Shown here one piece after another: positions 37,810 to 49,831 of a DNA stretch of 50,192 nt. Source of the stretch: an uncultured Bacteroidota bacterium (lineage in GTDB: Bacteria > Bacteroidota > Bacteroidia > UKL13-3). The notes beneath the pieces were generated by a model. It was given only the letters and a program-made list of their open reading frames with translations, was not told the origin of the DNA and searched no databases. The position numbers and the translations under genes are program-made. The DNA lies in the NCBI GenBank assembly GCA_903910445.1, contig CAIVZR010000092.1, positions 1 to 50,192 of the forward strand, read 5' to 3'. How positions within the stretch are numbered: the stretch's first letter is position 1; the number at the start of each line of letters is the position of its first letter.

Positions 37810-37921
37810 GGGAAGTGGTGGTTTAGTTTTTTCTTTCAAGTTATAAGTCCTATTTTAATATTCCCCTTCGGGATATATTACAGCATCCTTTTTTTTTCAA
37901 TTTTCAAATTATAATTTGCTC

Positions 37922-38125
37922 TTGTATTATGTTCCTTCGGAACATCTGGTGGGTAGAAATCATTTCCCCCCGATTGACGTTCCGTAGGAACGTTTGAAAG
38001 ACCGTAATTGATTAAGAATTATTTTATTCTTCAATTCAAATTCATATTCAAACGTTCCTCTGGAACGTCAGTGCAGGAATATTCATTATCTACCCACCAA
38101 ATGTCCCTATGGGGACATAATACAG
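37922..38125. repeat. nested inverted-repeat module, copy 1
   Basis: A ~204-base module whose outer arms (37922-37957 and 38089-38125; TTGTATTATG ... GGTGGGTAGA against TCTACCCACC ... CATAATACAG) are inverted copies. Each arm carries its own small hairpin (GTTCCTTCGGAAC on the left, GTCCCTATGGGGAC on the right). Inner arms (37975-37997 and 38048-38070; TGACGTTCC ... AACGTTTGA and its complement) are also inverted and each self-complementary. It is non-coding and resembles MITE/REP-type intergenic elements. Confidence 0.75.
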
Positions 38126-38208
38126 CAACCTCTATAGTTCGATTAATAAATTAGAATTAACTCTTGAATAATGCCCAACGAAAATACATGGATGAATGAA
38201 TATTATCT

Positions 38209-38250
38209 GCCCACCAGATTTCCTTATAGAAAAATAATATAGCATCCTCT
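38209..38250. repeat. degenerate single arm of the nested module
   Basis: CTGCCCACCAGATTTCC and the following ATAATATAGCATCCTCTATA resemble the right outer arm of the modules, with the hairpin destroyed by substitutions. It is a decayed partial copy between the two full modules. Confidence 0.5.
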
Positions 38251-38280
38251 ATATTTCAATTTTAATAATATATTTCGCTC

Positions 38281-38487
38281 TTGTATTATGCCCCTTCGGG
38301 GCATTTGGTGGGTAGAAACCAATGCTCCCCCGATTGACGTTCCGTAGGAACGTTTGAAAGACAGGAATTGAATAAAAATTGAATTGTTCATTGAATAGAT
38401 TTTCACATCAAACGTTCCTATGGAACGTCAGTTCAGGGCTATTCATTATCTACCCACCAGATGTCCCTATGGGGACATGAATACAAC
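38281..38487. repeat. nested inverted-repeat module, copy 2
   Basis: Same design as the module at 37922, offset by 359 bases. Outer arms are at 38281-38316 and 38449-38487, inner arms at 38335-38357 and 38408-38430. The left hairpin is GCCCCTTCGGGGC instead of GTTCCTTCGGAAC: paired substitutions keep the stem intact. Confidence 0.75.
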
Positions 38488-38557
38488 GGGAAATTATAAT
38501 TCAATCATCACTGTTGTATTCACTCCTCGCTCACACTTCGCTCTCACTCTGATTTTT

Positions 38558-38610
38558 CTACCCACCAAATGTCCCTATCGTGACATAATATAGCATCCTC
38601 TATAGTTCAA
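38558..38610. repeat. partial right arm of the nested module
   Basis: TCTACCCACCAAATGTCC followed by CTATCGTGACATAATATAGC is another right-arm copy without a left partner; its flank AGCATCCTCTATAGTTC is shared with the other copies. The remaining bases from 38611 to 38770 show no feature. Confidence 0.55.
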
Positions 38611-47917: not shown

Positions 47918-48068
47918 GGCCGTTGGTGAGGCTAACTCGCATTCAAACGCACAACACCAACTGCGGCGGTGCTTCAGTGAATGATAAGGGGAAATGGGAA
48001 TTGAGGGGGAGTATGTGGCCGTTGGCGAGGCTAACTCGAATCCTTACGCACAACACCAACTGCGGCGG
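47918..48068. repeat. REP elements A and B (direct)
   Basis: Two 52-base copies (47918-47969 and 48017-48068), each starting GGCCGTTGG(T/C)GAGGCTAAC and ending GCACAACACCAACTGCGGCGG. GTTGGTG near the 5' end pairs with CACCAAC near the 3' end. The lead-in sequences (AAGGGGAAATGGG ...) are also duplicated, giving a ~99-base unit. Confidence 0.8.
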
Positions 48069-48130
48069 CGATAAATTGAAATATGATTGATGATTATATG
48101 ATGTATTTTGAGTTAAATTGAGAAGAAAAA

Positions 48131-48387
48131 CAATTCGAATAACTTACTATTCACAATCCCTGGAGACGCCGCAGTTGGTGTTGTGTAATGGCCAATGCGT
48201 AAGCCTCACCAACGGCCCTAATTAACAATTAAACATCTTAACCTACTTTTGATTTATCATTAATTATGACAATGATTTTAACTAACATTTCTATAATTAA
48301 CAATTCGAATATCTTACTATTCACAATCTCTGGAGACGCCGCAGTTGGTGTTGTGTAATGGCCAATGCGTAAGCCTCACCAACGGCC
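48131..48387. repeat. REP elements C and D (inverted orientation)
   Basis: Two 51-base copies in reverse orientation (48167-48217 and 48337-48387), each within an 87-base direct duplication that starts CAATTCGAATA(A/T)CTTACTATTC. They run CGCCGCAGTTGGTGTTGTG ... GCCTCACCAACGGCC. D ends 7 bases beyond the stop of the transposase gene. Confidence 0.8.
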
Positions 48388-48394
48388 AATTTAA

Positions 48395-48919
48395 TTAAAT
48401 CTTATCTTGATAGTGTACTAAAAATCCCCATTCATCTATCCCTGTTTCATAAAACCTTGCAGATGAAAATTTATACTCATTTGGTAATTCACAAAGTCCA
48501 GCTTTCACTGGATTATTATGAATATAATTAAATTTTTGCTTAAAAACTAAATCATTCCTTAATTCAATACTTAATGAATTTCGTTCCCAAATTTGATAAT
48601 TGCGATCAGACGAACCAACTCTAAAATTCCCTAAAATTGATTTATGATTTACTCTCAAATCTTTCAAAATCATTTGCGCAGTATATTTCATAAAGTTTCT
48701 TAGAAAATCCCCAACATTGGTGTCGTAATCTAATTGCCAAATAATATGAATATGATTACTCATAATTACAAATGCATATATCCTAACTTTATATTTTTTT
48801 GAAACATATTGAAGGCTATTAATAATTTGCAACTTATATTTCTCTGGCTTGAGGAGTCGCTTCCATTGCAATATGGTGGCGGTATAAAACTGAGGATATT
48901 CAGGGTTTATCTTTTTCAT
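48395..48919 (-). CDS. REP-associated tyrosine transposase (RAYT, IS200/IS605-like)
   Basis: A 174-residue Y1-type transposase: the HUH motif is in VIMSNHIHIIWQLD and the presumed catalytic tyrosine is in FNYIHNNPVKAGLCELP, the hallmark of RAYT proteins. RAYTs are domesticated IS200/IS605 relatives that cleave and move short palindromic REP elements. An in-frame TTG at 48937 overlaps a -7 box, so the ATG at 48919 is preferred. The gene is intact and flanked on both sides by repeats of one family. Confidence 0.9.
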   Translation of the reverse strand: MKKINPEYPQFYTATILQWKRLLKPEKYKLQIINSLQYVSKKYKVRIYAFVIMSNHIHIIWQLDYDTNVGDFLRNFMKYTAQMILKDLRVNHKSILGNFRVGSSDRNYQIWERNSLSIELRNDLVFKQKFNYIHNNPVKAGLCELPNEYKFSSARFYETGIDEWGFLVHYQDKI

Positions 48920-48934
48920 AAAAATTTTATTGAG

Positions 48935-48942
48935 CAAATATA
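48935..48942 (-). promoter_or_regulatory. -7 box of the RAYT gene
   Basis: The minus strand reads TATATTTG, 15 bases before the chosen ATG at 48919. Confidence 0.5.
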
Positions 48943-48967
48943 TTTAAAAAACCATTCCATTTTTTGG

Positions 48968-49399
48968 GGCCGTTGGTGAGGCTAACCCGCATACCAAACG
49001 CACAACACCAATTGCGGCGGCGGTTTAGTGAAAAATTATTCGTCGAGAGTCAATTTCAAAATTGGCCGTTGGTGAGGCTAACCCGCATACTAAACGCACA
49101 ACACCAACTGCGGCGGTGAGAGTGTGACATGGGATTCGTCGAGAGTAATGTGTGAAGTTGGCCGTTGGTGAGGCTAACCCGCATATCATACGCACAACAC
49201 CAACTGCGGCGGTGAGAGTGTGACATGGGATTCATAGAGAGTAATTTGTGAAGCTAGCCGTTGGTGAGGCTAACCCTCATACCAAACGCACAACACCAAC
49301 TGCGGCGGCGAGAATATGGGAAATAATGCATCGAAAGTAAAGTATGAAATTGGCCGTTGGTGTTGTGTAAAAGCCAAAGGGTAAGCCTCACCAACGGCC
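48968..49399. repeat. tandem REP array, five copies with a 96-base period
   Basis: Copies start at 48968, 49064, 49160, 49256 and 49352, each exactly 96 bases apart: four 53-base direct REPs (E-H) and one 48-base hybrid (I). The 43-base spacers are related too (TGAGAGTGTGACATGGGATT in two of them). Copy I has perfect 11-base inverted ends, GGCCGTTGGTG and CACCAACGGCC. The array begins 31 bases upstream of the RAYT open frame. Confidence 0.88.
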
Positions 49400-49534
49400 C
49401 TTATAAATTTTTGATTTAGATTTTATGTTAGAAAGTAAAATGCAATAATTATTATTTCCCGTTTATCCCCACATCCCCCGTTAATAACTAATTTATAAAT
49501 GCATTTTAAAATTCTATCTTCGCATCGCATTTGG

Positions 49535-49712
49535 TTGAAGCATGAATTCATTTTTATGTTTCATTAAAAGGGAATCAGGTGGAAATCCTGAACAGTTCCC
49601 GCTGCTGTAAGTCGTATTAAGAAACCTCATAGCACTCCTAGCCACTGTTCGTTTCGAATGGGAAGGCGCTAAAAGGATCACGACAAGTCAGAAGACCTGC
49701 CACACGCATTTT
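49535..49712 (+). ncRNA. cobalamin riboswitch (AdoCbl-type)
   Basis: Conserved pieces in order: AAAAGGGAATCAGGTGGAAA, TCCTGAACAGTTCCCGCTGC with TGTAA, a variable middle, and the B12 box AAGTCAGAAGACCTGCCA (49685-49702). It precedes a BtuB-like receptor gene, the classical target: when cobalamin binds, expression of the receptor falls. The 5' edge is approximate. Confidence 0.93.
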
Positions 49713-49831
49713 ATCATTATGCTTTCGGGAAGAAAGGTGCTAATGAACATCAGATCGGTATTCTTTTGTTCTACTTTGTTTTTTCGCAGGTGTAAGTATT
49801 GTTAAACATTTTTTTAATTTTATTTGCAACC

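Follow-up and report, generated by a model that had tools for sequence, protein, structure and literature searches.

REP/RAYT partnerships are known mainly from Gammaproteobacteria. Near the right end of contig C92 of a Bacteroidota draft genome, a transposase gene lies among nine copies of one repeat, and the question is whether gene and repeats form a REPtron, i.e., a domesticated HUH/Y1 transposase that is present in one copy and is flanked on either side by its cognate repeat, which it probably moves. The evidence discussed below makes this reading highly probable. The window, i.e., the whole stretch of DNA that was analyzed, is the complete contig of 50,192 bp; the genome (G000) comprises 3.43 Mb in 107 contigs and is 99.96% complete.

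The transposase gene and the repeats around it

The following features were annotated; the bit scores are from a covariance model that was built from the nine repeat copies.

47918..47969, plus strand: REP copy R1, 81.4 bits, downstream side of the gene
48017..48068, plus strand: REP copy R2, 79.5 bits, 99 bp from R1, with an upstream segment common to R1 and R2
48166..48217, minus strand: REP copy R3, 74.8 bits, inverted relative to R1/R2, second loop subtype
48336..48387, minus strand: REP copy R4, 76 bits, nearest to the stop codon, 170 bp from R3
48395..48919, minus strand: RAYT / TnpA-REP gene, 174 aa, HUH (H56, H58) and Y132, intact; from NF047646, Pfam Y1_Tnp, alignment and AlphaFold2/Foldseek
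48968..49020, plus strand: REP copy R5, 76.8 bits, array unit 1, upstream of the gene, TRF period 96
49064..49116, plus strand: REP copy R6, 81 bits, array unit 2, TRF period 96
49160..49212, plus strand: REP copy R7, 81.6 bits, array unit 3, TRF period 96
49256..49308, plus strand: REP copy R8, 79 bits, array unit 4, TRF period 96
49353..49399, minus strand: REP copy R9, 58.7 bits, inverted, perfect 11-bp palindrome at the array end, fold z -4.7

An earlier note on this DNA had described an intact HUH/Y1 transposase of the RAYT type, and this was borne out. The protein reaches 91 bits with the NCBIfam model NF047646 (REP_Tyr_transpos, cut-off 80) and matches Pfam Y1_Tnp, and the residues N55, H56, H58, and Y132 are invariant in an alignment of 17 proteins. 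Only the start was moved, from the TTG at 48937 of the open reading frame list (180 aa) to the ATG at 48919 (174 aa), as in the relatives. The characteristic motifs are NHIH and YIHNNP, and the W motif is IWE, which is also found in most of the clade. The AlphaFold2 model (pLDDT 89, pTM 0.87) has as its best PDB match in Foldseek 4er8, the E. coli TnpA-REP with a REP hairpin (E 3.8e-10); the transposases of IS608 and ISDra2 rank next. The gene is the only one of its type in the genome.

The nine copies are restricted to positions 47918-49399, as had been noted before. The covariance model retrieved exactly these nine from the window, and R9 was matched a second time, as a mirror image on the opposite strand; the chance expectation for the window search was 0.65 for a 15-mer with three mismatches and 0.00 for a 20-mer. 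The change of orientation between the two sides of the gene was also confirmed: R4 and R3 run opposite to the array, and with R2 and R1 the array orientation returns. The downstream copies had been described as a direct pair and an inverted pair, but they form two direct pairs, 47918/48017 (99 bp apart) and 48166/48336 (170 bp apart), which are inverted relative to each other. The R3/R4 pair lies in a 113-bp repeat with 88% identity.

Upstream of the gene, five copies at exact 96-bp intervals had been proposed. This holds true for the four direct copies at 48968, 49064, 49160, and 49256, but not for the fifth, R9, which is inverted, starts 97 bp further on, and is devoid of the TGCGGCGG tail (GCGGCGG). 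The 43-base spacers were thought to be conserved as well, which is only partly the case, as their identity is 53-65%, with one pair at 91%, compared to 92-96% for the 53-bp REP cores. The better conservation of the cores means either that the REPs have been held constant within old units, or that they have been homogenized. The presence of both repeat orientations beside a transposase and the partly repeated spacers make a CRISPR improbable. The array is adjoined by a cobalamin riboswitch (49515-49718), and a TonB-receptor-like ORF starts at about 49832.

The assembly is a draft and the window is a whole contig, and thus the array might be an assembly artefact. We assign next to no probability to this explanation, because the array units differ from one another (76-93% identity over 96 bp), which is incompatible with the duplication of a single read, and because similar repeat clusters or arrays lie beside the RAYT genes of relatives in other assemblies (L088, L092, L067).

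Structure and dispersal of the repeat

The repeat, REP-A, read foot-first, consists of a 5'-CGCC foot and a stem GC-A-GTTGGTG that is paired with CACCAAC-G-GC and contains one A.G mismatch. A GT[AG]G at the foot of the stem is absent from the REP copies. The stem GTTGGTG/CACCAAC is short and the loop has 26-27 nt, which explains that most single copies, folded as single-stranded DNA, are no better than shuffled sequences (z about 0); folding above the shuffled level was found only for 49353-49399 (z -4.7) and 49256-49308 (z -2.9). Alignment of 33 copies from G000 and the sister genomes revealed two near-invariant arms, GCCGTTGGTGAGGC and CAACACCAACTGCGGCG, which flank about 18 variable bases. 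Covariation of the stem was sought within the species and none was found, the stem being nearly invariant.

Pattern searches together with the model identified 25 REP-A copies in the genome at E < 1e-6. Of these, 16 lie beyond the window, on 11 contigs (C7, C35, C46, C47, C50, C71, C75, C78, C90, C103, and C107), and weaker copies are present on C18 and elsewhere. Judged only by reading their flanks, the dispersed copies are intergenic. The earlier note had asked for a genome search, and since the repeat occurs both beyond the window and in a sister species, the objection that it is absent elsewhere fails. The name REPtron, which had been given to the locus, is also justified by a protein above the RAYT cut-off, a model that best matches the E. 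coli TnpA-REP with REP DNA, and a dispersed repeat.

A second, related repeat, REP-B (GCCGCCGTTGTTGCGTGTTGTG...CACCAACAACTGGGCG), was found at up to 19 places in the genome, and the window has none. REP-A and REP-B form REPIN-like inverted doublets, about 14-20 bp apart, at several loci (C7, C50, C71, C90). The inverted REP doublets elsewhere in the genome are the likeness to REPINs (Bertels and Rainey, 2011; PMC3116915); however, the two halves belong to different subfamilies here, and the copy number is in the tens.

Four other genomes of the genus were available for comparison (G001, G002, G003, and G004). REP-A is present in 18 copies in G003 and in one copy in G001, and none was found in G002 and G004. 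None of the four genomes contains a RAYT above the family cut-off, but for G003 this has to be read with the fact that the assembly is 89% complete and split into about 180 contigs. G003 is 94-96% identical to G000 on both flanks of the REPtron. Between these flanks it has 570 bp (L127, contig C10 of G003), in contrast to 1,564 bp in G000. Therefore, the REPtron has been either gained in the lineage of G000 or lost in G003. A clean empty site was sought in G003 at the REPtron position and was not found; the site is occupied by another element, namely two copies of an unrelated two-hairpin element within the 570 bp. The intergenic site looks as if it attracts such hairpin elements. At another orthologous site (C18 of G000, C58 of G003) the REP of G000 ends precisely where the 3' stem arm ends, and another element follows. 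This breakpoint at the edge of the hairpin is a single case, which is suggestive of REP mobility, but only that.

The absence of the gene from the G003 site would also fit an IS200/IS605-type insertion sequence that moves as a unit, with the repeats as remnants of its hairpin ends, and the catalytic fold is the same. Like IS608 and ISDra2, the window system has an HUH/Y1 catalytic core and a predicted hairpin substrate. However, a two-ended mobile unit and multiple gene copies are lacking: one gene copy stands against 25 strong repeats, and many repeats are found per side instead of two ends. In addition, the IS200 equivalog score of the protein is 21.9, far below the cut-off of 55, and the G003 site, with its 570 bp and two copies of another element, is not cleanly empty. 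We thus give the insertion sequence explanation little chance and favor the REPtron.

Related loci and known systems

The closest relatives of the RAYT are 50-56% identical and stem from Chitinophagaceae, Ilyomonas limi, and other Bacteroidota. Further relatives with 38-52% identity belong to other families of the class. The gene coordinates in all relatives were assigned automatically. Inspection by hand and by script revealed that in most relatives the gene stands between hairpin repeats of opposite orientation, so that relatives in many Bacteroidota genera are REPtrons as well, with a hairpin of their own. The same hairpin stem occurs on both sides in 21 of 31 loci of the RAYT clade, while permuted partners gave 4.5 on average and 11 at most. 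The stems differ, but several related genes in the RAYT tree have stems that are identical or almost so, namely TTGCAGGTG, TCGGTCTGTG, and TTGTTGGTG. The loops of the relatives mostly have 3-6 nt, with the exceptions of L099 (25 nt) and L061/L062 (12 nt).

The relatives have the foot of the hairpin in common. GCC was counted in the five bases before the stem and the first stem base, oriented as the upstream copies. Of the 23 loci that have repeated hairpins, 19 carry it (mirror position 5 of 23, background 4.4%); the hairpins had been picked for perfect stems of >= 8 bp, and loci of related genomes are not fully independent. As perfect complementarity was the criterion of this choice, differences in the stem from species to species do not count as independent evidence that it pairs. 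The window repeat, with CGCC followed by GC-A-GTTGGTG, fits the GCC pattern.

These comparisons bear on the view that the repeats have a regulatory or structural function, e.g., as terminators or protein-binding sites, and that the transposase is inactive or a coincidental neighbor. It is in agreement with the intergenic positions of the repeats, the weak evidence for mobility, and the location of R9, which borders the array on the side of the cobalamin riboswitch. However, matching hairpins flank the gene in the related loci at a frequency far above that of permuted partners, and the stems tend to follow the RAYT tree. A merely coincidental or inactive transposase is thus very improbable in our opinion.

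The following mechanism can be proposed for the REPtron. The enzyme most likely binds the REP hairpin in single-stranded DNA, like that of the E. coli REPtron, and it would read the GCC foot instead of GTAG, the guide in the REPs of Gammaproteobacteria. Y132 would cut near the hairpin, and the ends would be rejoined. In this way REPs would have spread in intergenic DNA, alone or as inverted doublets with REP-B, and the 96-bp array would have grown afterwards next to the gene, through duplication of units of REP plus spacer. The missing covariation within the species and the weak folding as single strand do not favor this model, and excision, insertion, or cleavage was not observed. A further point against it is that G003 retains 18 REPs without a detectable RAYT of the window type, albeit in an assembly that is 89% complete.

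The locus shares several features with the E. coli TnpA-REP system (subclass 2.2; PDB 4er8; PMC8266576), namely the predicted fold, the single gene, and REPs on both sides, and with the E. coli REP/BIME the mismatch within the stem and the occurrence of REP subfamilies in inverted doublets (PMC8266576). It differs in the foot, which is GCC instead of GTAG, in the much longer loop, and in the protein, which is only 21% identical in a structural alignment. More generally, the window REP is devoid of the 5' GT[AG]G foot of the canonical GTAG REP systems (subclasses 2.2, 2.4, and 2.5). Corneloup et al. (2021; PMC8266576) established the role of GTAG as guide and, by biochemical means, the choice of the repeat by the RAYT for GTAG systems that belong to groups 2 and 3.

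Such systems had been thought to be less described in Bacteroidota. This is only partly right, as a Bacteroidetes subclass, 2.6, has already been published, which equals RAYT group 5 and has atypical flanking hairpins that also occur at other places in the genome (Quentin et al., 2018; PMC6006769). Its members have about 179 aa, the motifs NH[LIV]H and YIH[QN]NP, hairpins without GT[AG]G, WQ as consensus W motif, a core length of 135, and an insertion, given as 21 in the table, that follows helix C and precedes strand 4. The window RAYT resembles them in its 174 aa, NHIH and YIHNNP motifs, Bacteroidota relatives, and a hairpin foot GCC instead of GT[AG]G. In contrast to the WQ of the published consensus, its W motif is WE; this is a position of the consensus which is not known to be strictly kept. 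In addition, its clade is well separated on the tree from a longer clade that holds a second RAYT of the genome, on contig C60; compared to this second RAYT, the window protein is shorter by 8 residues in the region from helix C to strand 4. Because of the WE motif and the separate clade, the gene was filed as near subclass 2.6. As judged from its sequence and predicted structure, it is a RAYT near this subclass (group 5), and the locus is a genuine REPtron. A common GCC foot and a loop of 26-27 nt are not stated for subclass 2.6 in the main-text passages of that study which were consulted (PMC6006769). The GCC foot in place of GTAG, the loop of 26-27 nt, and the sister species in which an unrelated hairpin element occupies the REPtron position are apparently new.

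Further hairpin systems in the genome

The second RAYT (L005, positions 1-1450) is accompanied by an unrelated REP family with CGAAGTC-GACTTCG and CAAATCT-AGATTTG hairpins, in repeats of about 120 bp beside the gene. In addition, G000 contains at least four subclass 1.2 genes (Y...Q..HH), each beside hairpin repeats (L007 on C6, L008 on C43, L010 on C25, and L011 on C11). Quentin et al. (2018; PMC6006769) give subclass 1.2 as being without REPs. Among 28 loci of this subclass, a 6-bp stem common to both sides was found in 7 (0.4 expected) and a 5-bp stem in 16 (2.9 expected). The pairing of a single hairpin family with a single subclass 1.2 gene is at present a candidate assignment.

One family of this kind, the CTACCCACCAAATG hairpin, occurs at 63 places in G000 with one mismatch allowed, compared to one place for the reversed control, and five of the places are in the window. 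A cluster of a two-hairpin element, AAACGTTCC-GGAACGTCA ... CTACCCACCAAATG-hairpin-AATACA, is located at 37900-38600 of the window, and its stems vary, but mostly stay complementary. On contig C34 (80476-80917) five copies of the CTACCCACCAAATG element have an exact spacing of 107 bp, which is another precise-period array.

The data lean somewhat towards the view that hairpin-repeat systems are more general than published. They would then include subclass 1.2, and as a hairpin family of this type is found by the dozen in G000, this genome would harbor two RAYTs and four or five RAYT-like partners with a repeat of their own each. In addition, a GCC guide would replace GTAG in a whole Bacteroidota RAYT clade. 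The conserved GCC foot together with the differing stems of the relatives represents a natural set with which foot or stem specificity and the position of the cut can be addressed. If cognate hairpins are indeed a feature of subclass 1.2, the line that separates insertion sequences from domesticated RAYTs would shift.
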